Assembly (NCBI RefSeq): GCF_002119765.1
Contig: NZ_CP021112.1
Coordinates: 2,474,501-2,538,500 of the forward strand
Length of the DNA stretch: 64,000 bases
Direction of reading: 5' to 3'
Source: Pseudorhodoplanes sinuspersici
GTDB lineage: Bacteria; Pseudomonadota; Alphaproteobacteria; Rhizobiales; Xanthobacteraceae
The first letter of the stretch is position 1; every line of letters starts with the position of its first letter. Shown piece by piece: positions 2,929 to 42,621 of this stretch. The translations under genes were made by a program, and so were the position numbers. The notes under the pieces are model-generated. The model was not told the origin of the DNA. It ran no database searches and was given only the letters and a program-made list of their open reading frames with translations.

Positions 2929-2958
2929 TGTGCGATAGCACTGCAACTCTCTCCGTTC

Positions 2959-2978
2959 ATTCCCGCGCAAGCGGGAAT
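2959..2978. repeat. Palindromic intergenic repeat (ATTCCCGC hairpin)
   Basis: ATTCCCGC (2959-2966), loop GCAA, then GCGGGAAT (2971-2978) form a perfect 8-bp hairpin in the gap between convergent hbdA and the SnoaL-like gene. The consensus 'cattcccgcgcaagcgggaat' is a common short dispersed repeat in Bradyrhizobium-type genomes. It could also act as a bidirectional terminator, although no T-tract follows. Confidence 0.6.
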
Positions 2979-3058
2979 CCAGTCTTACTCAATGCTGCTG
3001 CGAAACGCAGTTCTGGGTGCCCATTTTCGCGGGGACGAGCGGAAAAATCAGCCCTGTC

Positions 3059-3430
3059 TCAGTTCGGCTTCTGCGCGACGAAGCGTCCCTCTTTGTAAGT
3101 CGCCCCGAAATAAACATCGACGGCTTTGATCTGGTCTCCGTCGAAGGTGATGAACTCGGTATTTCTGAAACTCCGTCCGTCGTCCATCGTAAGCTTGTAG
3201 GTCACGAAAGCGCCGTCGCCGTGCTCGGAGATGCGCTCGATGGCGGCGTCCCGGATGCGCTCGCTGTTCGGCCAGCAGCGGGCGAAATATTCAACCCGGT
3301 CGATCGCATCGTCATAGGGGCTGGTGAAGGTGAAGTCCTTGGACAGGGCGTTTTCGACGACCACCCGATCCTTATTTATAAAGGCGGCGAAGTAGCTGCG
3401 AACGACGTCCGCCCGGCTGCGCTGTGGCAT
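3059..3430 (-). CDS. SnoaL-like / nuclear transport factor 2 family protein
   Basis: A 123-residue protein with the cone-shaped NTF2-like fold pattern. An N-terminal helical stretch with VRSYFAAFINKD precedes DFTFTSPYDD, and the middle has a hydrophobic strand VTYKLTMDDG. The end reads IKAVDVYFGATYKEG, where an x-V-YFG strand is typical of SnoaL_2 proteins. Members are small ligand-binding proteins or isomerases, and the substrate here is unknown. A GGGAGA ribosome site precedes the ATG. It lies 38 bases downstream of a GST gene, probably in one operon. Confidence 0.8.
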   Translation of the reverse strand: MPQRSRADVVRSYFAAFINKDRVVVENALSKDFTFTSPYDDAIDRVEYFARCWPNSERIRDAAIERISEHGDGAFVTYKLTMDDGRSFRNTEFITFDGDQIKAVDVYFGATYKEGRFVAQKPN

Positions 3431-3468
3431 GGTCCGTCTCCCTGTCTTTGAAGCGCAACGCGTTTGCG

Positions 3469-4128
3469 CTACGTCGCGTTGTCCTGCGGAAACAACTTGA
3501 AATACGGCTCCGCTTCTTTCAGCACGCGGGCGAAGGACGGCCGCTGCATCAGCCGCTCGAGATAGGCGGCTGCATTCTTGTGGTTTTCCGCAAGCGGCAT
3601 CACCTTGTCGGTGTAGAACAAGGCCGGCGCCGCCGCGCAGTCTGCCATGGTGAAATCGTCGCCCGTGATCCAGGTCTTGCCGTCGATATATTTGTCGACA
3701 AGGCTGCAGGTTATGTCGAGCGTGTTGCGGGCTTCCGCCACGCCCTGCGGATCCTTCTGCCCGGCAGGCCGCAATCGGTCGCCGACCACCTTTTGCATCT
3801 GCATGTTGAGATAGAGATCGAACATCCGGTCGCGCAGCCGCATCTGTAACGCCCGCGCTCCATCCTGCGGAATGAGCTGAACCGGGCCGGGATAATGCAA
3901 CTGCAGAAACTCGATGATGATGCTCGTTTCAGTCACGGTTGCGCCCCGTGTCTCGTCGCGCAGCACCGGAAATTTCCCGATCGGCCACATCTTCCTGAGA
4001 TTTGCGGCTGCGGTCTCGTCCATCAGATCGACGAGATGCGGCGTGAACGGCGTGTCGTTCTCATACAGCGCGGTCAGCACCTTCATGCAGAAGGATGAGA
4101 GCGGATGAAAATACAGCGTGAGGGACAT
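3469..4128 (-). CDS. Glutathione S-transferase family protein
   Basis: A 219-residue GST-fold protein. The N-terminal thioredoxin-like domain starts SLTLYFHPLSSFCMK, with a Ser/Cys region where GSTs bind the glutathione thiol. It continues to KFPVLRD, whose cis-Pro is typical, and TETSIIIEFL. The C-terminal helical domain contains GDDFTMADCAAAPALFY, the usual N-capping box. I start at the ATG at 4128 rather than an upstream in-frame start because the protein then begins at the first beta strand. The position between RibD-like and SnoaL-like genes suggests a small detoxification operon. Confidence 0.9.
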   Translation of the reverse strand: MSLTLYFHPLSSFCMKVLTALYENDTPFTPHLVDLMDETAAANLRKMWPIGKFPVLRDETRGATVTETSIIIEFLQLHYPGPVQLIPQDGARALQMRLRDRMFDLYLNMQMQKVVGDRLRPAGQKDPQGVAEARNTLDITCSLVDKYIDGKTWITGDDFTMADCAAAPALFYTDKVMPLAENHKNAAAYLERLMQRPSFARVLKEAEPYFKLFPQDNAT

Positions 4129-4216
4129 GGTGAGATACCCGCCTTTGACATGTCGGTTGGGTTGCGCGCGCTCAACGATGCGATCCAAGTTTGCCTCTCG
4201 GGAGGCCGCGCTAATC

Positions 4217-4864
4217 CTACGATTTCGTCAATACGATATGCATGGCATTCGGCGTGGTGACGTGTTCGCTGCGCCGATAGCCGAGCTTTGGCAGATCGAG
4301 CCCAGCAAAAAGATGTTCGCCGCTGCCGAGCAAGATCGGAGAGACGGCAAAATGCATTTCGTCGACAAGGCCAGCCTGCAGATATTGCCGGATCGTGGCA
4401 GTGCCGCCGCCGACGCGGATGGTCTTGCCGTGCGCGGCGTCTCGCGCGCGTTCCAGCGCCGCGTGAATGCCGTCGGTGACGAAGTGAAATGTGGTGCCGC
4501 CTTCCATATCGATCGCGGGGCGCGGATGCTCGGTGAGCACGAAGACCGGACAGTGATAGGGCGGGTTGTTGCCCCACCATCCCTTCCATTCGTCATCCGG
4601 CCATTCGCCGCGGCTGGGCGCGAACATATTGCGGCCCATGATCCAGGCGCCGACGTTCTCGAAACCGCGCTTGGCAAAATCGTCATCAATACCCGTTGAG
4701 CCGCCGTCCTGCCCCATGACCATTGTCCGGAATGTGCGGGTACCCAACATCCACTGATGCAGCGCTTCGCCGCCGACACCGAGTGGATTGCCGCGGCTCT
4801 GATCGGGGCCGGCGCCATAACCGTCGAGAGAGATCGTGAAACCGTGAACGCTAAGTTTGGACAT
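4217..4864 (-). CDS. Dihydrofolate reductase family protein (RibD C-terminal-like)
   Basis: A 215-residue protein with the DHFR/RibD reductase fold. It begins KLSVHGFTISLDGYGAG and carries ENVGAWIMGRNMF, the glycine-rich segment GKTIRVGGGTATIRQYLQAGLVDEM (residues about 150-175) and a final VSPILLGSGEHLF. These are the NADPH-binding and dimer features of YwjB/YyaP-like DHFR-family enzymes, whose substrate is usually unknown; it is not the housekeeping FolA. The ATG at 4864 follows an in-frame TTG. It is divergent from an HxlR regulator across a 103-base gap. Confidence 0.88.
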   Translation of the reverse strand: MSKLSVHGFTISLDGYGAGPDQSRGNPLGVGGEALHQWMLGTRTFRTMVMGQDGGSTGIDDDFAKRGFENVGAWIMGRNMFAPSRGEWPDDEWKGWWGNNPPYHCPVFVLTEHPRPAIDMEGGTTFHFVTDGIHAALERARDAAHGKTIRVGGGTATIRQYLQAGLVDEMHFAVSPILLGSGEHLFAGLDLPKLGYRRSEHVTTPNAMHIVLTKS

Positions 4865-4967
4865 CAACGGGTCCTCCCTTGATCAAACTGATTGTGAAAT
4901 GCAACTGGTTGCTCTATAAATAGTCTGATTGCATAACGCAAGCGGTTTTGAACGGGCAGGGCTGGCA
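4865..4967. promoter_or_regulatory. Divergent promoter region with candidate HxlR operator
   Basis: This 103-base AT-richer gap separates the RibD-like gene and the HxlR gene. It holds the palindrome GCAAC-TG-GTTGC (4901-4912), overlapping likely promoter elements (the AT stretch at 4914-4931), and a related AACGCAAGCGGTT around 4936-4948. HxlR proteins commonly bind such sites between themselves and a divergent redox gene. The binding itself is inferred. Confidence 0.45.
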
Positions 4968-5486
4968 ATGAACGAGGCGCATCGATCAGGTTGTCCGATC
5001 AATCTCACGCTGGAGGTTGTGGGCGACCGCTGGAGCCTTCTGGTGATCCGGGACATCATCTTCGGTAACCGGCGGCATTTTCGGGAATTGCTGAACGGTT
5101 CTGAGGAAGGCATCGCCTCCAACATTCTGTCCGATCGGCTGAAGACGCTGCTGGAGCAGGGTATCCTCACCAGGGCAGATGACCCCACCCATAAGCAGAA
5201 GGCGATCTACAGTCTCACTGAAAAAGGCATTGAGCTATTACCAGTGCTGGCACAGATGGCGGCCTGGGGCCGCAAATATCTGCCCGTCACCGAAGAGCTC
5301 AGCATTCGTGCGCAATTACTCGACGAAGGCGGACCGAAGCTGTGGGCCGAGTTCATGGACGAATTGCGCGAGATGCATCTCGGTCCCGGCAAGCGGCTCA
5401 GGCCAAGGCCGCGTGCACCATCCGTCTTCGAGCGGCTGCGGGCGGCCTATGAAGAGGTGGTGGCGCGGCGGGAGAAGAAAGCCTGA
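4968..5486 (+). CDS. HxlR-family winged-helix transcriptional regulator
   Basis: A 172-residue regulator. The HxlR core begins SGCPINLTLEVVGDRWSLL and includes IFGNRRHFRELL, GIASNILSDRLKTLLEQGIL (recognition helix region, about residues 45-65) and YSLTEKG. The C-terminus extends about 70 residues beyond the usual domain and is basic. The start is the ATG at 4968, with a GGGCAGGG site; an upstream TTG in frame is less likely. It probably controls the divergent RibD-GST-SnoaL set. HxlR proteins often sense electrophiles through cysteines, and here the only early Cys is in SGCPI. Confidence 0.9.
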   Translation: MNEAHRSGCPINLTLEVVGDRWSLLVIRDIIFGNRRHFRELLNGSEEGIASNILSDRLKTLLEQGILTRADDPTHKQKAIYSLTEKGIELLPVLAQMAAWGRKYLPVTEELSIRAQLLDEGGPKLWAEFMDELREMHLGPGKRLRPRPRAPSVFERLRAAYEEVVARREKKA

Positions 5487-5498
5487 GGCAATTGACGC

Positions 5499-5783
5499 TC
5501 AGGCTTTGTCGGAATGTCCAAGCTTCCGCTCCGGCGCAACGCGATCGCGGACCAGCTGCTTCAGCTCTTTCATTTCCGGAAAGCGGCCGCGTTCCTTGCG
5601 AGACCAGACGAGGTCGTTCTCAAGACGCACCTCGAACACGCCGCCGGTGGTGTCGGGCGTCAGGATCACCGAGCCGAGTTCTTCGGCAAAGGTGTGCATC
5701 AGCTCCTGCACCATCCAGTTTGCGCGCAAGCCCCAGCCGCAGAGCCGGCAATATGTGATCTCGACGGTTGGGCTTTTCGGCAT
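5499..5783 (-). CDS. SelT/SelW/SelH-type Rdx thioredoxin-like protein
   Basis: A 94-residue protein with the SelW-type start VEITYCRLCGWGLRANWM, giving a C12-x-x-C15 redox motif with Cys where some homologues have selenocysteine. This is followed by GSVILTPDTTGGVFEV and the DLVWSRKERGRFPEMKELKQLVRD tail that is standard for bacterial Rdx proteins. The biochemical role of this family is poorly known, with thiol redox likely. It is the last intact gene of the minus-strand array that starts at 13880, and it ends 12 bases from the convergent HxlR stop. Confidence 0.88.
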   Translation of the reverse strand: MPKSPTVEITYCRLCGWGLRANWMVQELMHTFAEELGSVILTPDTTGGVFEVRLENDLVWSRKERGRFPEMKELKQLVRDRVAPERKLGHSDKA

Positions 5784-5943
5784 CGCGGTCTCGCAGGATA
5801 TCTGCGCGAACTGTTCCGGATTCCATGCGCGAGCGCAACGCCAGAATGAATGCCGCTGTTGCCAGACGACCAAGCGCAGCGATGATGAAGGCAGAGAAAG
5901 CGAAGAAGGTGCCGGCGATCCGGCCGGCACCCAGAGCATTCAT
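5784..5943 (-). pseudogene. DUF1772-like membrane protein, N-terminal remnant
   Basis: From the ATG at 5943 the frame gives MNALGAGRIAGTFFAFSAFI followed by IAALGRLATAA. It matches the first transmembrane helix of DUF1772 (anthrone oxygenase-like) proteins, which carry a G-x-FFAFSAFVM-x-AL pattern. After about 35 residues the similarity stops, and the frame then runs into the SelW-like gene as arginine-rich shadow sequence. I read it as a decayed gene whose 3' part was lost next to the SelW gene. A short intact membrane peptide is the alternative. Confidence 0.4.
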
Positions 5944-5955
5944 CCCGTCCGGACG

Positions 5956-6417
5956 TCAGGCCGCGCGCCCCTGCTGCACAGTTTGCGGACCAGCATCGAG
6001 CATCGCCTGATTGCTCATCGGATCGAACGGTGCCGAGCAATGGTCGTGGGCGATCAGCCAGTGGCCGTCGATCTTGCGCAAGCAGACGGTCGAGCGCAAC
6101 CAGCACCAATGTTCGGTGCCACTCGTGCTGGTGCAGCCGCAATGCATGGTCATGTGACCGAATGCAATGTGCTCGTCCGCCGTGACCGAAAGCTCACTGA
6201 CCTCAATGGTGGCGGGCCCCGCCATGTGCGAAAAGCACATTTCCAGGTGCTTGCTGTAAGCATCGATGCCCTGGAACTGGAAAGCGGAGTGGCAGTCATA
6301 CGACACCATGTCCGGCACGTAGCAGGCCCGAATGGCATCGAGGTTCATCGCGCGGCTGGCTTCGAGCCATTGCTCGAGGCGGGCGTGGACCGCGGCTTCA
6401 TTGCTGCTTGTTGTCAT
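5956..6417 (-). CDS. SnoaL-like domain protein (nuclear transport factor 2 superfamily)
   Basis: A 153-residue NTF2-like protein. An N-terminal helix HARLEQWLEASRAMNLDAIRACY leads into VPDMVSYDCHSAFQFQGIDAY and then VSELSVTADEHIAFGHM. The end has the WLRSTVCLRKIDGHWLIAHDHCSAPFD strand pair typical of YybH/SnoaL_3 proteins (GxWLIxHxH). Unusually many Cys and His residues lie in the putative pocket. The function is unknown. It is 34 bases downstream of the SRPBCC-DUF1579 gene, in the same operon. Confidence 0.85.
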   Translation of the reverse strand: MTTSSNEAAVHARLEQWLEASRAMNLDAIRACYVPDMVSYDCHSAFQFQGIDAYSKHLEMCFSHMAGPATIEVSELSVTADEHIAFGHMTMHCGCTSTSGTEHWCWLRSTVCLRKIDGHWLIAHDHCSAPFDPMSNQAMLDAGPQTVQQGRAA

Positions 6418-6451
6418 CGCTTGCTCCTTGCTCGTGGTGTCGCCAGCGGCG

Positions 6452-7450
6452 TTACTTTTTGCGCCGGTAATGCGCGGTCATGAACTTCATCCATTGACCG
6501 TCCGGGCCTTTTGCCTGTGATGAGAGGACCCAGTGATCCTTGCTCTCGATGGTGACGATGTCCTGATAGGTCGTCATCGTGCCGTCGCCGCTCATGCTCG
6601 GGCCTTCGGTGTCGAGCGTCAGGACCTTGCCGGAGGCATCCAGTGTGCCCTCGTAGAGCCACATGTGAGTCATCATCGATGCGATGAAGCTGCCGACATA
6701 GCGCTGCTTCTGCGGATCGTAGCCCAGCGTGATGATGCTGTTCATCATGCCGCCGCCGGGCATTTCGCCCGAGCCCTCGCTGAGGAACCACAGGCCGCCG
6801 AGCGAGCGCGTGGTGCAGGTGCCGGTGTTTTTCATCGGCGGCTGGTCGGGACCCATCATGCATTCGCCTTCGAAGTCCCATTCGCCAACGAGTTGCTGCA
6901 GCCACTCGTGTTCCTGTTGCGGCTTGGCCATCATCGCGCATTCGGGGGCTTCGGTCATGGTATCAGTCATGTTTTCTCCTGTGAGGTTGCTTCCAAGTTT
7001 GTCGAGGCTCTGGCTCCAGCCGGCATCCATGCCGGCCAGCATTTGCGGGGCGGCCGGTGAGAAACCGGTCGCATGCGCGGTGACCGTCAGCCTGGTTTTG
7101 CCGCCATCGTCTTCGAAGGTGACGGTGGTCAGCGACTCCAGATGCGGGTTGCCGTTGGCATCTTCCGCAACAGCGACGAAGACGATGCGCGAGGGCGAGG
7201 CGATTTCGCGGAACGTGCCGGACATCGGGTAAACCGTGCCATCCGGTGCCCGCATATGGATGAGGATCTTGCCGCCGGGCCGCACATCGAGTTCGCAGAC
7301 CGGATTGGTGAAATGCTGCGGCCCCCACCATTGCGCGAGCTGTTCCGCGTCGATCCAGGCCTTGAATACCTTGTCGCGCGGCGCATCGATGACGCGCGTG
7401 ATCGTCACACTGCGTTCGGCGGTCGGCTTCAGGCTGGTGGCTGCAGTCAT
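6452..7450 (-). CDS. SRPBCC (AHSA1)-DUF1579 two-domain fusion protein
   Basis: A 332-residue protein made of two families usually encoded separately. Residues about 15-158 are an AHSA1/START-like SRPBCC domain, with VIDAPRDKVFKAW, LAQWWGP, a DVRPGG strand and AGWSQSLDKL at the end. Residues about 175-330 are DUF1579, with EHEWLQQLVGEWDFEGE, SLGGLWFLSEGSGEMPG, ITLGYDPQKQRYVG and MWLYEGTLD. The linker has several Met residues (ENMTDTM, CAMMA), where an independent start might once have been. An AGGAGGA ribosome site precedes the ATG at 7450. Ligand binding is likely; the ligand is unknown. Confidence 0.88.
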   Translation of the reverse strand: MTAATSLKPTAERSVTITRVIDAPRDKVFKAWIDAEQLAQWWGPQHFTNPVCELDVRPGGKILIHMRAPDGTVYPMSGTFREIASPSRIVFVAVAEDANGNPHLESLTTVTFEDDGGKTRLTVTAHATGFSPAAPQMLAGMDAGWSQSLDKLGSNLTGENMTDTMTEAPECAMMAKPQQEHEWLQQLVGEWDFEGECMMGPDQPPMKNTGTCTTRSLGGLWFLSEGSGEMPGGGMMNSIITLGYDPQKQRYVGSFIASMMTHMWLYEGTLDASGKVLTLDTEGPSMSGDGTMTTYQDIVTIESKDHWVLSSQAKGPDGQWMKFMTAHYRRKK

Positions 7451-7487
7451 GCGATCCTCCTTTGGGTTTGATGTCGCGTTGAGTCGT

Positions 7488-8021
7488 CTATTGTTGTGCC
7501 AGCGTATTCAGGTCGCGCAGGCCTTTCTCGAATTCGCCGCCGAGCATCTTGTCGATGCTGGTGAATGTGCACATGACCTTCGAGACGATGTTCATCGGCC
7601 CGGACATGCTCCAGGTCACATTCGTGCCGTTGCCGTTTGGAGCGAGGTCGTATTCGACGATGTTGTGCGCGGTCATCGGCCTCGTCATGTCGAGATTGAG
7701 CGTGATCTTCGACGGGGTGGCCTGCGCGATCGTAAGCTTGCCGGCGCCGCTTTCGCTGTCGCCATCCCATTCCAGCGCCGCGCCGGCGCCCGTTTCCGGG
7801 CCGCTGAAGGTCTTCTTCATCGTCTTGCCCTTTTCAAAGGGAGACCATTCGGCGCCCCGGCGCAGATCGGTCAGGATGCCGTAGACCTTTTCCTGCGGGG
7901 CATCGATCGTCATCGCGCGCTGAACGCGGAAAGTGTCCGGCTGCGTGATCGATGCGTAGAGCAGGAGACCGGCAACGGCGACAACCAGAACGCCGATGGC
8001 AATGAGGATTTTTTTGAGCAT
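7488..8021 (-). CDS. Membrane-anchored SRPBCC family protein (tandem copy 1)
   Basis: A 177-residue protein. Residues about 4-26 are a transmembrane or signal-anchor helix (ILIAIGVLVVAVAGLLLY), followed by a polyketide_cyc2-type SRPBCC domain. That domain has TIDAPQEKVYGILTDLRRG, EWSPFEKGKTMKKTFSGPE and ALEWDGD, and ends KMLGGEFEKGLRDL. The START-like domain would sit on the outer face of the cytoplasmic membrane. It is plainly a duplicate of the next gene upstream, sharing LRRG-EWSPFEKG-TMKKTFSGP. A long open frame runs on upstream to 9134, but the protein homology begins at this ATG. Confidence 0.9.
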   Translation of the reverse strand: MLKKILIAIGVLVVAVAGLLLYASITQPDTFRVQRAMTIDAPQEKVYGILTDLRRGAEWSPFEKGKTMKKTFSGPETGAGAALEWDGDSESGAGKLTIAQATPSKITLNLDMTRPMTAHNIVEYDLAPNGNGTNVTWSMSGPMNIVSKVMCTFTSIDKMLGGEFEKGLRDLNTLAQQ

Positions 8022-8053
8022 GACGACTATCCGGTTTGAAAGATTGGCTTCGA

Positions 8054-8623
8054 TTACGCCGCAGCGGTGCGGGAGCCGTCGGGGAGGGATTCCGCCTCGC
8101 GCTCGGCGACGATCTTCAGGTCCTTGAAGCCCTTCTCGAACTGATCGCCGCACATCTTGTCCACGTTCATGAACAGACCCATGACCTTTGACATCATGTT
8201 TGCGCGACCGTGGATGCTCCACGTCATCCTGGTGGCATCGCCCTGCGGTTCGAACGTGTATTCGACGATGTGATTGGCCTTCATCGGCTTGGTCATGTCG
8301 AGATTGAATGTGATCTTCGAGGGCGTGACCGCGGCGATCGTGAACTTTCCGGCGCCGCTCTGTTTGTCGCCGTCCCATTCCAGGGCCGAGCCGACGCCGG
8401 TTGCCGGGCCGCTGAAGGTTTTCTTCATGGTCAGCCCTTTTTCGAACGGCGACCATTCGACGCCGCGGCGAAGATCGGTGACGATGCCGATGATCTTCTC
8501 TCGCGGCGCATGGATGATTGCCGATCGCTCGACCCGGAACGTGTCCGGCTGCATCGATGCGTAGATCAGAAGGCCAATGACGGCGGCGGCCACGACGGCG
8601 AGGATGATGAGAGCGATGGTCAT
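8054..8623 (-). CDS. Membrane-anchored SRPBCC family protein (tandem copy 2)
   Basis: A 189-residue paralogue of the gene at 7488-8021, with the same architecture: an N-terminal helix (IILAVVAAAVIGLLIY) and an SRPBCC domain with HAPREKIIGIVTDLRRG, EWSPFEKGLTMKKTFSGP, ALEWDGD and KMCGDQFEKGFKDL. It carries an extra polar tail of about 12 residues. The ATG at 8623 is preceded four codons earlier by an in-frame TTG. The function is unknown; lipid or hydrophobic ligand binding is typical of the fold. Confidence 0.9.
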   Translation of the reverse strand: MTIALIILAVVAAAVIGLLIYASMQPDTFRVERSAIIHAPREKIIGIVTDLRRGVEWSPFEKGLTMKKTFSGPATGVGSALEWDGDKQSGAGKFTIAAVTPSKITFNLDMTKPMKANHIVEYTFEPQGDATRMTWSIHGRANMMSKVMGLFMNVDKMCGDQFEKGFKDLKIVAEREAESLPDGSRTAAA

Positions 8624-8689
8624 GATGTTCTCCAAAGGCGCGCCTGTTGCGCGAAAATTTTTGACGGGAATGACTGTGCGCGAAGCGCT

Positions 8690-9196
8690 TCAGGTTTTGG
8701 CAAGATAGTCGTCGAGCTTCTCGAACGAGCCGCCATAGCCCTGTTTCATCGAATCGAACATGCCGATGAAGGTCTTGGTTTCCGCCTCCGAGGCATTGAT
8801 CGGCCGGCCGCGCAGCGTCAGCGTCGTCTGGCCGTTCTCTTCGGTCAGGGTCAGCGTGTTTTGTATTTCCAGCGGCCATGTGTCCTTGAGCTGCGGGAAG
8901 GGCGCGCGCGTGATGCCGCCGTCGAGATCCGCGAACGAATTGATGAACACGATGCGTTCCGGGGCGACGATCTCGCGATAGACAAAGCGGCCGAACATGT
9001 CGTGCCCCGGCTGAAACTGCATCGCGTAGTGAAAAATGCCGCCGGGCCGGAAGTCGAATGTCATGATACGGAGCGTGCAGCCTTTTGGACCCCACCATTG
9101 CGCAAGGCTGTCGGCCTCCGACCAGGCTTTCCACACCTTGTCGCGCGGCGCATTGAAGGTGCGGGTGATGACGAGTTCCTGCTGGGTGTCGAGCAT
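8690..9196 (-). CDS. SRPBCC (AHSA1-like) family protein
   Basis: A 168-residue cytoplasmic START-like protein with ITRTFNAPRDKVWKAW, LAQWWGPKGC, FDFRPGGIFHYAM, a central ERIVFINSF strand and a final FDSMKQGYGGSFEKLDDYL helix that lines the cavity. This is the 'AHSA1/activator of Hsp90-like' subfamily that in bacteria accompanies ArsR regulators. I start at MLDTQQ, the ATG at 9196, since upstream codons give no homology. It is one of five SRPBCC domains in this array. Confidence 0.9.
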   Translation of the reverse strand: MLDTQQELVITRTFNAPRDKVWKAWSEADSLAQWWGPKGCTLRIMTFDFRPGGIFHYAMQFQPGHDMFGRFVYREIVAPERIVFINSFADLDGGITRAPFPQLKDTWPLEIQNTLTLTEENGQTTLTLRGRPINASEAETKTFIGMFDSMKQGYGGSFEKLDDYLAKT

Positions 9197-9230
9197 GGTG
9201 TTGTTCCGTGATGGGTTGTGCTGATTGTGC

Positions 9231-9656
9231 TCAGGCTTTTGCCAAAGGATGCGCGAAACTCCAGGCATGGCCGAAGGGATCGAGCACCTGGCCATAGCGG
9301 TCGCCCCAGAAGGCATCCATCGGCGGCATCAGAATGGTGGCGCCGGCATCGGTGGCGCGCTTCACCGCCTCGTCGCAATTGGGCACAAAAAGATGCAGCA
9401 CGAATGTGCTGGCACCGGCCGTTTTCGGGCCGACGATTTTGCCGCCACCGTGTTGCTCGCGGTATTCCGGGAAATCGTCCATCAGGAAGACGCGTGAGCC
9501 GTTCACTTGCAGTTCGGCGTGCATCAGCCGTTTGCCGTCCTCGGCCGGCATGCGCAAGACTTCGGTTGCGCCCAATGCCTTCTTGTAGAAGTCGATGGCA
9601 TCGGCTGCGCCGTCGACGACGAGATGGGGAATGACGCCTTGTGTCTGTTCGGTCAT
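9231..9656 (-). CDS. VOC family protein, PhnB-like
   Basis: A 141-residue glyoxalase/bleomycin-resistance fold protein. It begins VIPHLVVDGAADAIDFYKKALGATEV, the PhnB-type first beta-alpha-beta unit, and has MHAELQVNGSRVFLMDDFPE, HLFVPNCDEAVKRATDAGA and a final WGDRYGQVLDPFGHAWSFA. The metal-ligand-like Glu and His positions of PhnB proteins are present. PhnB-like members are annotated only by fold, so neither glyoxalase nor resistance activity can be assumed. AAGGAG sits upstream of the ATG at 9656. Confidence 0.9.
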   Translation of the reverse strand: MTEQTQGVIPHLVVDGAADAIDFYKKALGATEVLRMPAEDGKRLMHAELQVNGSRVFLMDDFPEYREQHGGGKIVGPKTAGASTFVLHLFVPNCDEAVKRATDAGATILMPPMDAFWGDRYGQVLDPFGHAWSFAHPLAKA

Positions 9657-9763
9657 GGTGATCTCCTTGATAGGTGTGTTGCAGGCGTGGGAGGGCATTC
9701 AGCCGTGCCGCATGGCACGCCCGCCGACATGTGAAGGTTCAGCTCTCGCTTACGACACGTCGA

Positions 9764-10126
9764 TCAGAGATCGATGAAGGTCTTGAAGCCGCCCCAGAAC
9801 ATGCGTTTGGCGTCGAATGGCATTTTCTTCGGATCATTCATCATGTCGGCGAGACGCTTGTCCTTCATCACCTTTTTTATGATGGCATCGCGTTGCTTGC
9901 GCGATTTGTAGGTGATCCAGGAAAAGACCACGACCTCGCCTTTCTTCAGCTTCACGCTCTGCGGAAACGATGTCGATTTGCCGGGCTTCACGTCATCGGC
10001 GACACATTCATGGTAATCGATGGCGCCGTGCTCCTTCCAGACCTTGCCGGCGATTTTGGCGATGCGTTCGTAGTCCTTCAGCTTCTTCTTTGGAACCGGC
10101 AGCACAAATCCATCGACATAGGGCAT
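9764..10126 (-). CDS. DUF1428 family protein
   Basis: A 120-residue protein starting MPYVDGFVLPVPKKKLKDY, the hallmark of DUF1428 (E. coli YbaA-like). It also has GAIDYHECVADDV, VVVFSWITYKSRKQRD and a final MPFDAKRMFWGGFKTFID. The fold is a dimeric alpha/beta barrel-like ferredoxin fold. No activity is established for the family. AAGGAG precedes the ATG. It lies 42 bases after the DUF899 gene, a pairing often seen with SRPBCC and VOC genes. Confidence 0.93.
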   Translation of the reverse strand: MPYVDGFVLPVPKKKLKDYERIAKIAGKVWKEHGAIDYHECVADDVKPGKSTSFPQSVKLKKGEVVVFSWITYKSRKQRDAIIKKVMKDKRLADMMNDPKKMPFDAKRMFWGGFKTFIDL

Positions 10127-10168
10127 TCGAAATCTCCTTGAGTGTTTTTATGGAACGGCTGTAGCTGC

Positions 10169-10966
10169 CTAATTTGAATGGCAACAGGATGACGCTTCGT
10201 CGCCAGCCACCCATCGCCCGGTCGGAGCGACGTGGCCGACAGCACCATAACGGTCATGATGCCGCACCCAGTCGGTGAGATCGAAATTCGGGCCTTGCTC
10301 GTTGCGGCCCTTGGGCGTGAGATCGAGCAGCATATACGAGCCGAGCACTTCCTCGCCGCCCCGGCCGAAGGTCGAGTAGGTATGGAAGATGTCGCCCTTC
10401 TCGTCCTTGTAAAAGATACTGAAGCCGGACAGGTCTTCCAGCGGAACTTCGGTTTCCTGGTAATTGTAGAAGGCCTTGCCGCTTTTCATCTGCTCGGGTG
10501 TGAACGAGACATCGAAATCGTAATTGAAGTCGCTGCCGAAGGACGACACCCACCTGAAGCGCCAGCCCATCCGCGTCTTGAAGGCCTCGATCTCGGCAAG
10601 GGGAGCGCGCGCAACGGATACGAAGCTGACATCGTGATGCTCGATATGCTGGAGCGCAGCTTCGACGTGATCGACCTCGAATGAACAGCCGACGCAGCCG
10701 TCCTTCTGTCCCGGCGCCAGCATGAAATGCTTGACGATGAGCTGGCTGCGGCCATCGAACAGGTCGGCGAGCGTCTTCTTGCCATCCGGCGTGTCGAAGA
10801 CGTAGGTCTTCTCGACCTTGACCCATGGCAGGTCGCGGCGCTTTGCGCTCAGCTTGTCGCGCAGGTGAGTCATTTCCTTTTCTTCCGCGAGCAGAGCCTT
10901 GCGCTCTTTCAGCCAGGTGTCGCGGGATACGATGCGATGGTTCGTGGCATTGCTGACATCGGTCAT
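10169..10966 (-). CDS. DUF899 family thioredoxin-like protein
   Basis: A 265-residue protein of the DUF899 family. The N-terminus RIVSRDTWLKERKALLAEEKE is followed by a thioredoxin-like core with FDGRSQLIVKHFMLAPG, and a Cys pair at C91 and C94 within KDGCVGCSFEVDH. Later parts are RWVSSFGSDFNYDF, a strand FSIFYKDEKGDIFHTYSTFGRG and LLDLTPKGRNEQGP. The tail ends in a Cys-Cys-His cluster. Redox or peroxidase-like action has been suggested for this fold but is not established. GTAAGGAGG precedes the ATG at 10966. Confidence 0.93.
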   Translation of the reverse strand: MTDVSNATNHRIVSRDTWLKERKALLAEEKEMTHLRDKLSAKRRDLPWVKVEKTYVFDTPDGKKTLADLFDGRSQLIVKHFMLAPGQKDGCVGCSFEVDHVEAALQHIEHHDVSFVSVARAPLAEIEAFKTRMGWRFRWVSSFGSDFNYDFDVSFTPEQMKSGKAFYNYQETEVPLEDLSGFSIFYKDEKGDIFHTYSTFGRGGEEVLGSYMLLDLTPKGRNEQGPNFDLTDWVRHHDRYGAVGHVAPTGRWVAGDEASSCCHSN

Positions 10967-10980
10967 GGGTGCCTCCTTAC

Positions 10981-11253
10981 TCATTGTGCGTTTTGCGGGA
11001 CCATGACAGCGGCGATGCGGCGGACGCTGTCGGCGGTATTCGTGCAGATCGGCTGCTCGATGATCTCGGCGAAGATCGAGCGATCGTTGGCCAAGGCACG
11101 GCTGCGATAATGGTCGATATGTTCGGCGATGAGGATCGCGCCGCTGAAGGCTGTTGCCGCCAGCGCGACGGCTGAGCCGAGGCGCAGCGCCAGCTGTGCG
11201 CCGGCGCGCCATATCCAGGCGGAAGCAAGAACAAAGAAGCTGCAGCAGATCAT
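10981..11253 (-). CDS. Small hypothetical membrane protein
   Basis: A 90-residue frame from the ATG at 11253 (a TTG at 11268 is possible). It starts with two hydrophobic stretches, CCSFFVLASAWIW and LGSAVALAATAFSGAILIA, then a polar tail with two Cys. I do not recognise the family. Its spacing (30 and 14 bases to neighbours) and direction fit the operon, which favours a real gene, but composition alone could give such a frame in GC-rich DNA. Confidence 0.5.
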   Translation of the reverse strand: MICCSFFVLASAWIWRAGAQLALRLGSAVALAATAFSGAILIAEHIDHYRSRALANDRSIFAEIIEQPICTNTADSVRRIAAVMVPQNAQ

Positions 11254-11283
11254 GGCGTCGTTCCCCAAACGTATTCGCCGTTG

Positions 11284-11664
11284 TTACATTCCGACCGGTG
11301 TCATCCAGCCGATCCCGGCTCCACCGGGCTGTTTCAGAATGGCGATGCGGCCCACATCCGGCACATCGAAAATCGGCCGCATCAATTGCGCGCCGGCTTT
11401 GACGGCCTTGGCGACGCGTGCGTCGACGTCGTCGACCGCGAGATAGGGCATCCATCCCTCAGGGACACCATCGAACTCCGGCGAGGTCAGCGGGAAGATC
11501 CCGGCGACCGGCTTGCCGTCATGGATGGCGCACCAGTAAGTGTCGCCCCGGTCCATCGGCATGGACACGAACGTCCAGCCGATGGTGTCTTGATAGAACC
11601 GCTTGTCGCGCTCGACGTCGCGGCTCGTGAGTTCGTTCCAGTGAAAGGTGCCGTGCTGTGGCAT
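11284..11664 (-). CDS. VOC family protein
   Basis: A 126-residue glyoxalase-fold protein. MPQHGTFHWNELTSRDVERDKRFYQDTIGWTF is the first module, of the PF00903-like type found in putative lactoylglutathione-lyase relatives with an FHWNEL start. Later features are YWCAIHDGKPVAGIFP, PYLAVDDVDARVAKAVKAGA and a final GRIAILKQPGGAGIGWMTP. It is distinct from the PhnB-like VOC gene at 9231. The ligand is unknown. The ATG at 11664 is used; the upstream TTG adds four residues. Confidence 0.9.
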   Translation of the reverse strand: MPQHGTFHWNELTSRDVERDKRFYQDTIGWTFVSMPMDRGDTYWCAIHDGKPVAGIFPLTSPEFDGVPEGWMPYLAVDDVDARVAKAVKAGAQLMRPIFDVPDVGRIAILKQPGGAGIGWMTPVGM

Positions 11665-11697
11665 GGCGAACTCCAAACTTTCTTTGCGAAACGCCGT

Positions 11698-12327
11698 TCA
11701 GGCGGCCTGTGCTTCCCGCGCCGGGAAGGGATCGCGCCAGGCAGGAATCTCCTCGAGCACGGATTTCCAGCGAACGACGTTCTTGAAATCATCGAGCGGC
11801 AACTGGATACGATCGGCGTAAGGCAGCGTCACCGATACCGCGAAGTCAGCAACCGTCAGGTGATCGCCGAGAAGGAATGTCCGGCCGGCGAGGTGATCGT
11901 CCAGCACGGCGGCGAATTGCTTGAAGAACCCGGTGGATTCATCGACCGCCTTGGTATCGGGCTCACCGAGACCAAACTTCGGCTTGATGATGTAATTGAA
12001 ATACAGATTGCCGGTGTGGCGCGTGAAGTGTTCTGAATTCCAGGTCAGCCACTTCAGAACGTCGATCTGCTTCTCGGGATTTGACGGCCAGAGATCCGAC
12101 TTCGCCTTGCGGGCGAGGTGGCACATGATGGCGTTGGCTTCCCACAGCTTGGTGTCGCCATCTTCCAATGCCGGCACCTTGCCGTTCGGATTGATCGCGA
12201 GGTAATGCGGCGTCTTGTGTTCGCCCTTGGCGAGATCGACGCGGACGAAGTCCGCCGGCGCATCGACATACTTGGCGACCGCGCAGGCCTTCTGCGGGTT
12301 GATGGTTTCAAAGTAATAGAGCTTCAT
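11698..12327 (-). CDS. Glutathione S-transferase
   Basis: A 209-residue GST. The thioredoxin-like domain has MKLYYFETINPQKACAVAKY, with a Pro-x-x-Cys-like active region, then INPNGKVPALED (cis-Pro) and LWEANAIMCHLA, the Glu-Ala(Ser) gamma-glutamyl binding pair. The C-terminal domain has RTFLLGDHLTVADFAVSVTLPYAD, with the N-capping box. This arrangement is typical of soluble bacterial GSTs that conjugate electrophiles or act as peroxidases. It is 52 bases downstream of a second GST in the same orientation. Confidence 0.93.
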   Translation of the reverse strand: MKLYYFETINPQKACAVAKYVDAPADFVRVDLAKGEHKTPHYLAINPNGKVPALEDGDTKLWEANAIMCHLARKAKSDLWPSNPEKQIDVLKWLTWNSEHFTRHTGNLYFNYIIKPKFGLGEPDTKAVDESTGFFKQFAAVLDDHLAGRTFLLGDHLTVADFAVSVTLPYADRIQLPLDDFKNVVRWKSVLEEIPAWRDPFPAREAQAA

Positions 12328-12379
12328 GACTTCTCTCCAATCCAGCGTTAAGCGAACAGTTTTTCCAGCGCGGCTCTGC

Positions 12380-13024
12380 TCACGCAGCCACTTTGAAGTC
12401 GGTGATCTGTGCATTGAGCGCGCGTTCAAAAGCGGGCCTCGCAGTGCAGCGCTTGACATAAGTCGCAAGGCGCGGGTCACTCATCACGATGTCGGTGTGA
12501 CCGAGAATCCTGAGCACCGTGGTCATCATCAGGTCGCCGGCGGTGAAGCGTTCGCCATCGAGGTAAGGCTTGTCGCCGAGCGCCTTGGAGAGTCCGGCAA
12601 GGCGCTGCTGCGCGAACTGCACGGCGCCTGGACGTCGCAGCTTGGCCCATTCCTGATCTCTGTAGAACAAGTCGATCAAAGCCACATTCATGAGGAAGGG
12701 CTCGATGGAATTGAGCGCGGCGATCAGCCATTGTGTCGCCCGCGTTCGTTCTTTTGGCTGCCTCGGCAGCAGTATCTCACTCCGCTCACCGATGTAGAGC
12801 ACGATGGCTCCCGATTCGAAGAGTACGAAGCCGTCTTCTTCAAGGATCGGCACCTGACCAAACGGCTGCAGCGAGCGATAATCGGGCTTGTCCTGATCGC
12901 CCTGTTCGAGGAGGCGCGTCCGGTAAGACAGGCCAGCCTCTTCCAAAGCCCAGCGCGCACGCAGATCGCGCACCTGGCCCTGAGCGAAATCCGGAACCCA
13001 TTTGAAAGCAGAAATCGTGATCAT
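12380..13024 (-). CDS. Glutathione S-transferase family protein
   Basis: A 214-residue GST-fold protein, divergent from its neighbour. Its N-terminus is FKWVPDFAQGQVRDLRARWALEEAGLSY, then SLQPFGQVPILEEDGFVLFESGAIVLYIG (cis-Pro and Glu-Ser pair). The C-terminal domain includes GDKPYLDGERFTAGDLMMTTVLR and ARPAFERAL. The start ATG at 13024 has GAAGGAACG upstream; a long open frame extends further upstream to 13609 but only as a shadow of the SRPBCC gene. The substrate is unknown. Confidence 0.92.
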   Translation of the reverse strand: MITISAFKWVPDFAQGQVRDLRARWALEEAGLSYRTRLLEQGDQDKPDYRSLQPFGQVPILEEDGFVLFESGAIVLYIGERSEILLPRQPKERTRATQWLIAALNSIEPFLMNVALIDLFYRDQEWAKLRRPGAVQFAQQRLAGLSKALGDKPYLDGERFTAGDLMMTTVLRILGHTDIVMSDPRLATYVKRCTARPAFERALNAQITDFKVAA

Positions 13025-13101
13025 CTGGTACGTTCCTTCGGTTTTCCGCAGCGTCAACGCCGGGCTTGACATAGGTCGAGAGGGCCGCGCGGCCTGACCG
13101 C

Positions 13102-13551
13102 TCAGGCGAAAAGCCGCTCCAGTTTGTCGAGCGAACCGCTCCAGCCGCGCTTGTGGCCGTCGCGGGCGGGTTCGTCGAAGAATTTCTCGTGCAGGAGCGT
13201 GAGCAGCGAGCCTTCGCCGTCGGGCTTGATCGTGACGGTGACGAGCGACTCGCGCTCCTTCATCGTGTGCCAGGCCCACGTGAAAACGAGTTTCTCGTTC
13301 GGCACCACCTCGCGATAGATGCCGCCGACCTGATGATATTCGCCGTCTTCGGTGTGGAAGCCGATGTTGAAGCCGCCGCCGACGCGCAGATCGATCTCTG
13401 CTTTCGTGACGGGACCGGAATCGGGCCCAAACCAGCGCACTATTTTTTGCGGGTCGGTCCAGGCGGCGTAGACTTTTTTCGCTGGCGCATTGAGACGACG
13501 TTTGAGGGTGAGGCTGGGTTTGACGGCGTCGTTGGTTTGGGCGAGGGACAT
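13102..13551 (-). CDS. SRPBCC (AHSA1-like) protein paired with the ArsR regulator
   Basis: A 149-residue START-like protein. It has LKRRLNAPAKKVYAAWTDPQKIVRWFGP, a central IDLRVGGGFNIGF strand pair, KLVFTWAWHTMKERESLVTV and the terminal helix GHKRGWSGSLDKLERLF. ArsR-AHSA1 pairs are very common in soil bacteria. The coding sequence begins inside the 3' part of the ArsR gene, overlapping it by 112 bases in another frame, so translation is probably coupled. Confidence 0.92.
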   Translation of the reverse strand: MSLAQTNDAVKPSLTLKRRLNAPAKKVYAAWTDPQKIVRWFGPDSGPVTKAEIDLRVGGGFNIGFHTEDGEYHQVGGIYREVVPNEKLVFTWAWHTMKERESLVTVTIKPDGEGSLLTLLHEKFFDEPARDGHKRGWSGSLDKLERLFA

Positions 13552-13880
13552 GACTCTTCCTCCACGAAAGCGGCAAGACGATCGAGCTGCTGCGACCAGA
13601 ACTGCGCATACCGGTTCAACCACCGCATGGCGTCCTCCATGGGCGCTGCTGTGAGTTCGCAAGTGACAACCCGTCCCGACTTCGAGCGGTGGATCAGCTT
13701 GGCATCCGACAACACGTCGAGATGCTTCATGATCGCCGGCAGGGAGACCGGGAAGGGTTTAGCCAGTTCGCTCACGGACATGCCGTCCTGCTCGGCGAGC
13801 CGCGCCAGAATGGCGCGGCGTGTCGGGTCGGAAAGCGCCGCAAACGTGCTGTTCAGTGGGTCATTTTGATAGTAAACCAT
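13440..13880 (-). CDS. ArsR/SmtB-family winged-helix regulator
   Basis: A 146-residue regulator. The winged helix covers about residues 5-95: FAALSDPTRRAILARLAEQDGMSVSELAK, then a recognition helix SLPAIMKHLDVLSDAKLI and the wing RSKSGRVVTCELTA. RYAQFWSQQLDRLAAFVEEE is where most relatives end. Here the frame continues about 37 Pro/Ser/Lys-rich residues into the SRPBCC gene, probably through loss of the usual stop. Metal-binding cysteines of classical ArsR are absent. As first gene of the array it is the likely repressor of the operon. Start ATG 13880. Confidence 0.92.
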   Translation of the reverse strand: MVYYQNDPLNSTFAALSDPTRRAILARLAEQDGMSVSELAKPFPVSLPAIMKHLDVLSDAKLIHRSKSGRVVTCELTAAPMEDAMRWLNRYAQFWSQQLDRLAAFVEEESCPSPKPTTPSNPASPSNVVSMRQRKKSTPPGPTRKK

Positions 13881-14060
13881 GTGGTTAAGTATAGGGATGT
13901 GAGAGTGAGCGTCAAGCGGGAATTTCAGAATCCGCGAGAAATCGAAAAAGAGGATTTGCAAGAATGCGTTAGCGGTGTGTTAGGCGGATCGTAACGCTCT
14001 TTGCTCATTCTGTTCGCGGTGCGATGTGACCTAGGATGGCTGAAAGTGGCTGGCATTCAG

Positions 14061-14312
14061 ATGAAGAAGATGAACTGGGTGAAGCCGCAATCAGCCTATG
14101 ACAGCATGCAAGCGTGGCGTGCCAAGCGTCAGGCTGCCGTGGCGGAGTTCGAGTCGCTGTCGACGGCCACCGCGAGCGCCTTTAGTGCGGCGTGGTCCAA
14201 CCAGATCAGCGGTCTTGGAGAGCTTGCCGCCAACGCGGCGCTACAGCGTGTTTCTGCCGAAGGCAAAGCCAAGATCGATGCGGCCACAAGCTCAATCGAC
14301 GTGAGCGCGTAG
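14061..14312 (+). CDS. Hypothetical protein paired with the YjfB-like gene
   Basis: An 83-residue, Ala/Ser-rich, mostly helical protein with KPQSAYDSMQAWRAKRQAAVAEFE and LQRVSAEGKAKIDAA. I do not recognise a named family. It lies 22 bases upstream of a YjfB-type gene in the same direction, so the two are probably cotranscribed and perhaps both belong to flagellar biology. The start is the ATG at 14061; an earlier in-frame start at 14001 gives an unlikely N-terminus. Confidence 0.65.
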   Translation: MKKMNWVKPQSAYDSMQAWRAKRQAAVAEFESLSTATASAFSAAWSNQISGLGELAANAALQRVSAEGKAKIDAATSSIDVSA

Positions 14313-42544: not shown

Positions 42545-42621
42545 GCGCCCGTAGCTCAGCTGGATAGAGCACCAGACTACGAATCTGGGGGTCAGGAGTT
42601 CGAATCTCTTCGGGCGCGCCA
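42545..42621 (+). tRNA. tRNA-Arg (anticodon ACG), CCA encoded
   Basis: The 7-bp acceptor stem GCGCCCG pairs with CGGGCGC (42611-42617), then G and encoded CCA (42619-42621). The D arm is GCTCAGCTGGATAGAGC; the anticodon stem CCAGA/TCTGG holds the loop CTACGAA with anticodon ACG; the T arm is AGGAG-TTCGAAT-CTCTT. All positions fit tRNA-Arg reading CGU/CGC (ICG after editing). tRNA 3' ends are frequent integration sites, and accessory genes follow on this side. Confidence 0.97.

Follow-up and report, generated by a model that had tools for sequence, protein, structure and literature searches.

The locus described here raises the question of whether fifteen genes lined up behind a single ArsR-type regulator gene are a dedicated system, or an operon whose content changes from one genome to the next. 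It lies in a stretch of 64,000 nucleotides (nt) of Pseudorhodoplanes sinuspersici (positions 2,474,501 to 2,538,500 of contig NZ_CP021112.1; hereafter the window), within a complete genome of 5.97 Mb. As an earlier note made from the sequence alone had stated, the array is co-directional: fifteen open reading frames (ORFs), all on the minus strand, run from position 13880 down to 5499 of the window with arsR at the head, and they are tightly spaced (-112, 77, 52, 33, 30, 14, 42, 107, 34, 66, 32, 37, 34 and 172 nt between consecutive ORFs).

We propose, with a probability of roughly 0.6, that the array forms a modular operon that responds to small molecules and regulates itself, located at a fixed chromosomal slot and headed by an overlapped arsR-AHSA1 pair. 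The sequence evidence for this lies in the slot, the gene order, the conservation of a predicted operator, the overlap itself and the apparent selection for its open frame and stop. ArsR would bind a palindrome that spans the -10 box and the arsR start codon, shutting the single promoter from which the array could be co-transcribed, and a ligand would release it from this operator. The head is compressed: the first codons of arsR hold the predicted operator, arsR also contains the ribosome-binding site for AHSA1, and the disordered tail of ArsR is encoded within AHSA1. The genes that follow (glutathione S-transferase (GST), VOC, DUF899, DUF1428 and further SRPBCC genes) vary, and would have been gained or lost over evolution at the fixed slot.

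The chromosomal slot and its changing content

The slot (2929..14060) lies between a 3-hydroxyacyl-CoA dehydrogenase gene (HBD, 2017-2928), which stands with etfA/etfB, and a side that carries a phasin-like ORF and the tlpA-argH pair. HBD was located in 145 of 149 genomes of the family, and a hand-picked sample of 80 HBD places in 79 genomes was compared, comprising all matching same-genus genomes and then at least one per genus; two HBD places at contig ends were left out. Up to 17 kb was fetched on the array side of each HBD, reaching ArgH in 68 of the 80 (closed slots), and an array family was scored as present when a slot protein matched a window protein at E 1e-6. Of the 68 closed slots, 29 contained one or more array families and 39 contained none. 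With open slots included, 33 of 80 carried some array family, and 26 of these 33 carried both ArsR and AHSA1a. The median distance from HBD to ArgH was 1.3 kb without array genes and 3.9 kb with them.

All slot members (162/162) were on the array strand, and the ArsR-AHSA1 pair stood first whenever it was present. The order of family pairs agreed with that of the window in 377 cases and disagreed in 36, where random order gave a mean of 207 and a maximum of 259 in 2000 trials; without the head pair the counts were 164 and 36 (random mean 100, maximum 135). As shared ancestry inflates this count, it indicates a common order rather than many independent events. The disagreements were mostly due to VOCa and GSTb swapping places with their neighbours. 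Further slot genes in relatives included another VOC family, a CxCG-type protein and a DUF1772-like ORF, all named by eye, and AHSA1 and DUF1579, which are fused in the window, occurred apart or singly.

The earlier note had proposed a search of genomes for conserved co-occurrence of these families and had named the absence of the set as a unit from any other genome as a sign against its proposal. The families do recur as a group elsewhere, sharing one strand and mostly keeping their order, so that such an absence was not found; the full set, however, was seen only in the window. Since the slot holds differing subsets in different relatives, the operon appears to be modular, with genes coming and going, and the claim that the size and mixture of the array mark a dedicated system is not supported. 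These comparisons describe a modular operon with a fixed location, of which the array is the most complete version encountered, rather than a fixed fifteen-gene system. It is also more than a chance gathering, because four of the 11 AHSA1-family places in the genome are inside it and because its families recur together on one strand in related genomes.

The head is not confined to the slot. ArsR orthologues were found at E 1e-30 in 58 of the 149 family genomes: 39 in the slot, 16 elsewhere (on another contig or more than 100 kb away) and three without an assigned place, with positions compared by eye. In one same-genus genome (G005) the slot is bare and the array is located elsewhere (L069/L003). 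A plasmid search with ArsR returned 89 records, of which two covered at least 80% of the query; both were Caballeronia megaplasmids, with no gene listed there.

Two results tell against this reading. The distances between array proteins correlate weakly with those of ArgH (Spearman 0.2-0.35 for six families; 0.93 for AHSA1b, in six genomes), which suggests that the array genes are partly vertical and partly exchanged. In addition, the VOC, GST and SRPBCC members were scored as best matches at E 1e-6, and some are probably not orthologues (VOCb, with 27-30% identity). Another, doubtful but real possibility is that there is no common job at all, and that a permissive slot gathers stress or binding genes behind one promoter, each with an unrelated substrate. 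The wide variation in composition among relatives and the weak agreement of gene trees with ArgH would be expected in that case, and unrelated material can occupy the slot, as in L158, where 8.5 kb hold genes of other kinds and no array family. Such a slot does not readily explain why every member shares one strand, why the order recurs, why the same few families return, or why ArsR-AHSA1-DUF899 is also found outside the slot, in Paraburkholderia and others. We prefer the modular operon with a regulated head.

The overlapped head and its predicted operator

The arsR gene (13440..13880, minus strand) encodes a protein of 146 amino acids with an SdpR-like winged helix. Membership of the ArsR/SmtB family is supported by NF033788 (70.9 bits against a cut-off of 55) and by HTH_20 and HTH_5, both above cut-off; the SdpR family cut-off was not reached (NF033789, 67.6 of 100 bits). 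The structural model shows a winged helix (H-H-H-H-beta-wing-H) that is confident to about residue 109, and a disordered C-terminal tail from about residue 110, with a predicted local distance difference test score below 50 for residues 113-138. Metal-sensing ArsR proteins carry a cysteine pair of the alpha3 CxC type in the recognition region. Metal sensing was rejected for this protein, as its recognition region has no cysteine pair and its only cysteines are Cys74 and Cys111. The latter, which is Trp in some relatives, exists because the TG of the AHSA1 ATG opens that arsR codon (13546-13550).

The tail and stop of arsR lie within the first 37 codons of AHSA1a (13102..13551), giving a dual-coding overlap of 112 nt on the minus strand (13440..13551). 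All fetched loci together gave 90 unique ArsR-AHSA1 pairs, whose overlap lengths fell into two groups: at most 29 nt in 32 pairs and 91-154 nt in 58. In a tree computed without the overlapping parts, the 58 long pairs and nine short ones formed one clade (Shimodaira-Hasegawa-like approximate likelihood ratio test 98), with six changes of overlap state on the whole tree in a quick search. This clade of 67 spans the Xanthobacteraceae, other alphaproteobacteria and the Burkholderiaceae, and thus both alpha- and betaproteobacteria. A Shine-Dalgarno core precedes the AHSA1 start in all 58 long pairs, although the starts had been chosen by that rule.

Upstream of arsR, a promoter scan identified TTGACG-16-TATACT, with the -35 hexamer at 13910..13915 and the -10 hexamer at 13888..13893 of the minus strand, both kept in relatives. 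The 57 aligned long-overlap relatives all have a TTGAC-type hexamer at -35 to -37 of the ATG, and TAxACT at -13 to -8 followed by TTAACC-N2-ATGGTTAAGT. As the -10 box ends 7 nt before the ATG, the arsR mRNA is probably leaderless. A predicted operator palindrome, ACTTAACC-N4-GGTTTACT, lies at 13871..13890 of the same strand; in its consensus form, ACTTAACC-N4-GGTTAAGT, it spans the -10 box together with the probable start site and the opening codons of arsR, and its right arm fixes the start of the protein as MVKY or MVYY. It thus has the 8-4-8 form and the start-codon position expected of a putative Rv2034-like autorepressor.

The operator was present in 64 of the 67 clade members (57 of 58 long-overlap and 7 of 9 short); the pattern missed L098, which has a one-letter variant, L195 and L201. 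Relatives were gathered by a loose pattern holding part of the motif, so that the invariance of the fully fixed positions is in part a product of how they were gathered; this does not apply to the -35 hexamer, the outer arm letters and the right arm. In the genome itself, CTTAACC-N4-GGTTNA has one exact match, at arsR, and the seven one-mismatch matches are at background (10 for a reversed control). A regulon beyond the array was rejected, as no further exact match was found in the genome. Between 5400 and 14100 there are three sigma-70-like sites, of which the only one on the minus strand is that before arsR. The totals of promoter-like and terminator-like sites in this interval were not above those of shuffles (3 vs 2.2 and 10 vs 8.7), and two minus-strand terminator-like sites, near 5920 and 9404, are at background level.

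Could the long overlap be an accident of annotation or codon bias, in which a TGATG stop is lost and reading runs on to the first chance stop? A single base does switch the state: A as the first base of AHSA1 codon 2 gives the stop and a 4-nt overlap, and A follows the AHSA1 ATG in 0 of 58 long pairs (by necessity), 4 of 9 short ones and 18 of 31 other AHSA1 genes. Long same-strand overlaps are moreover a known class, on the consulted text of two papers (PMC2174442, PMC2542354). However, when the 67 clade members were resampled synonymously, 10.8 long overlaps were expected (maximum 19 in 300) and 58 observed, and 26.2 overlaps of 30-88 nt were expected (minimum 19) and none observed. This null ignores phylogeny, uses pooled codon usage and resamples pairs independently. 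Among 18 representatives of clusters at 65% identity, 2.8 open frames were expected and 18 observed, but these were long pairs already selected as open, and the clade-wide resampling is the fair test.

The position of the stop argues in the same direction. In 55 of 58 long pairs, arsR ends no more than two codons away from a single column of the AHSA1 alignment, and in 30 of 58 its stop lies on a CTA, ATA, TTA or GTA (xTA) codon of AHSA1, although such codons make up only 30 of the 1227 Ile, Leu and Val codons beyond AHSA1 codon 50; slot pairs have xTA stop codons in 13 of 27. In 40 other AHSA1 genes the equivalent frame is open to that column in four, and a stop is present there in none. The third frame, an internal control, is open in 51 of the 58 long pairs and 19 of the 40 other genes, so that low stop density explains part of the pattern, but neither the difference nor the fixed stop. 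Frame and stop are thus kept beyond the synonymous null, an accident is improbable, and the disordered ArsR tail seems to be kept by selection.

The constraint has limits, and two observations count against a strongly selected overlap. Fourfold third positions are equally variable inside and outside it (0.439 vs 0.441; column test p 0.35), so that the slowed synonymous change expected of a selected dual-coding overlap was not found, as would fit an accident. Nine of the 67 clade members have no long overlap; three of them (L191, L199 and L200) carry their own tail before AHSA1, and the other six have hardly any, which indicates that the tail is dispensable in some lineages. Tail identity is somewhat above the null (0.470 vs 0.405 ± 0.006), which speaks against an accident, whereas that of a control segment is near it (0.324 vs 0.316 ± 0.007). 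Selection for a basic tail was rejected, because the charge of the tails (6.8) lies below that of the synonymous null (10.7) and exceeds it in only 3 of 51. Given the variable fourfold sites, the modest tail identity and the less basic tail, its residues appear weakly constrained, and selection seems to act on a disordered tail of given extent rather than on its letters.

Speculatively, the tail inside AHSA1 could be a docking peptide for AHSA1, with AHSA1 as ligand-binding co-sensor, and the overlap could lock the pair together evolutionarily as a portable sensor head that collects detoxification genes at the fixed slot. Production of an ArsR-AHSA1 fusion by -1 ribosomal frameshifting was rejected as very improbable. 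The window does have A_AAA_AAG in the arsR frame, 33 nt before the stop, but a slippery heptamer occurs in only 5 of 58 long pairs and no stable RNA structure lies over the overlap (z -0.16, window).

Gene products and their possible job

Families were assigned with Pfam for all array ORFs and with NCBIfam for ten proteins. After AHSA1a, an AHSA1-type SRPBCC protein (Pfam E 2e-30), the minus strand encodes GSTa (12380..13024; nearest solved structures 2ycd/3lq7), GSTb (11698..12327), VOCa (11284..11664), an orphan of 90 amino acids with no Pfam or NCBIfam family (10981..11253), a DUF899 protein with CVGC (10169..10966; Pfam E 9e-94), DUF1428 (9764..10126; Pfam E 5e-42), VOCb (9231..9656) and the AHSA1-type SRPBCC protein AHSA1b (8690..9196). 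These are followed by two Polyketide_cyc2 SRPBCC proteins, SRP1 (8054..8623) and its apparent tandem copy SRP2 (7488..8021), an in-frame fusion of AHSA1c with DUF1579 (6452..7450), a SnoaL_3 NTF2-like protein (5956..6417) and an Rdx / SelT-SelW-SelH family protein with CRLC (5499..5783; NCBIfam TIGR02174). Every family named in the earlier note was recovered (five SRPBCC, two GST, two VOC, DUF899 with a CxxC, DUF1428, SnoaL-like and SelW-like); the 112-nt overlap, the DUF1579 half, the orphan, a probably decayed ORF and the start-codon palindrome with a probably leaderless arsR are features beyond it.

The orphan has an N-terminal Cys-Cys, a His-x-x-His-Tyr and a C-terminal Pro-x-Cys, and its relatives (37-45% identity) adjoin DUF899 in five other loci (L006, L007, L008, L023 and L030). 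The probably decayed ORF (5620..5943, minus strand; no Pfam match) fills the last gap of the array, and its start resembles that of an intact-looking membrane-protein ORF in slot L142, which we take to be DUF1772-like; it may be the remnant of an array member.

Ligand-binding folds (AHSA1/SRPBCC, VOC, SnoaL and DUF1579) stand beside thiol-linked proteins (the two GSTs, DUF899 and Rdx). DUF899 belongs to the thioredoxin-like Pfam clan, as placed in the consulted part of PMC3091736. The DUF1579 half is modelled as a ten-strand barrel that resembles the spirocyclases OssO/OlmO and nitrobindin (Foldseek E 8e-9 to 5e-6; template modelling score 0.74-0.78 on the target); the model of the AHSA1 half is poor. 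By sequence, no solved relatives of DUF899 or DUF1579 were found at E 0.01. From these folds, a shared job would most likely be glutathione- or thiol-linked capture and detoxification of hydrophobic or electrophilic compounds, and the role that the earlier note had suggested, against an electrophile or hydrophobic compound, fits the products.

With regard to a possible genomic island, the G+C content (0.59-0.61) is similar to that of the neighbourhood, and the sole tRNA of the window is at 42545. The nearest named DUF899 relatives are on Pseudorhodoplanes and Afipia contigs. Beside the array, an HxlR regulator gene (4929-5486, plus strand) faces RibD_C (4217-4864), GST (3469-4128) and SnoaL_2 (3059-3430) genes on the minus strand, together at 3059-5486; L096 also holds HxlR, RibD_C and GST together (84, 83 and 67% identity, respectively). 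The small phasin-like ORF (14061-14312, plus strand) between the array and tlpA is named by resemblance only, and an ORF of this kind occurs at the equivalent place in several slots (34-47% identity).

Comparison with known systems

Full-text literature searches returned nothing on the arsR-AHSA1 overlap or the slot (an overly broad query was not counted as negative). The closest known arrangement is Rv2034-Rv2035-Rv2036 of Mycobacterium tuberculosis, in which, according to the consulted text (PMC3338718), an ArsR-type autorepressor gene is followed by a polyketide_cyc2 (SRPBCC) gene, the coding sequences overlap, and Rv2034 binds an 8-4-8 palindrome (CCGTAAGT-N4-ACTTACGG) with a footprint from -30 to +8 around its own start codon. 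The array resembles this operon, as far as that text describes it, in the ArsR gene followed by an SRPBCC gene, the overlapping coding sequences and the start-codon palindrome, with binding predicted here; it differs in the half-site (ACTTAACC), in having fifteen genes rather than three, and in its third gene. The operator arrangement would therefore be of a known kind, with a different half-site.

The ArsR-AHSA1-DUF899 triplets of Paraburkholderia, Caulobacter, Rhodococcus and others share the head pair and DUF899 with the array but are short, and those outside Paraburkholderia fall in other ArsR-AHSA1 clades, where the overlap does not exceed 29 nt. SdpR-type autorepressors have a similar ArsR core, although the present protein falls below their family cut-off. 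Long same-strand overlaps described in bacteria are of about 100 nt, as here, and the consulted text of PMC2174442 and PMC2542354 does not name the ArsR-AHSA1 pair; unlike the overlaps described there, this one is kept in a single ArsR clade that spans two classes, and its stop position is fixed.

The array is thus a remarkable version of an ordinary type of operon, with modular content, a start-codon operator and a selected overlap at the head. Its relatives form a natural series of the same operon, from a bare slot to fifteen genes, which makes it possible to test in what order genes were gained and what the core function is, and the operator predicts which of them share the regulation of the poorly known families DUF899, DUF1428 and DUF1579. 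The head offers a clear case of a selected long same-strand overlap in cellular genomes, with clade-mates that have lost the overlap as built-in controls.

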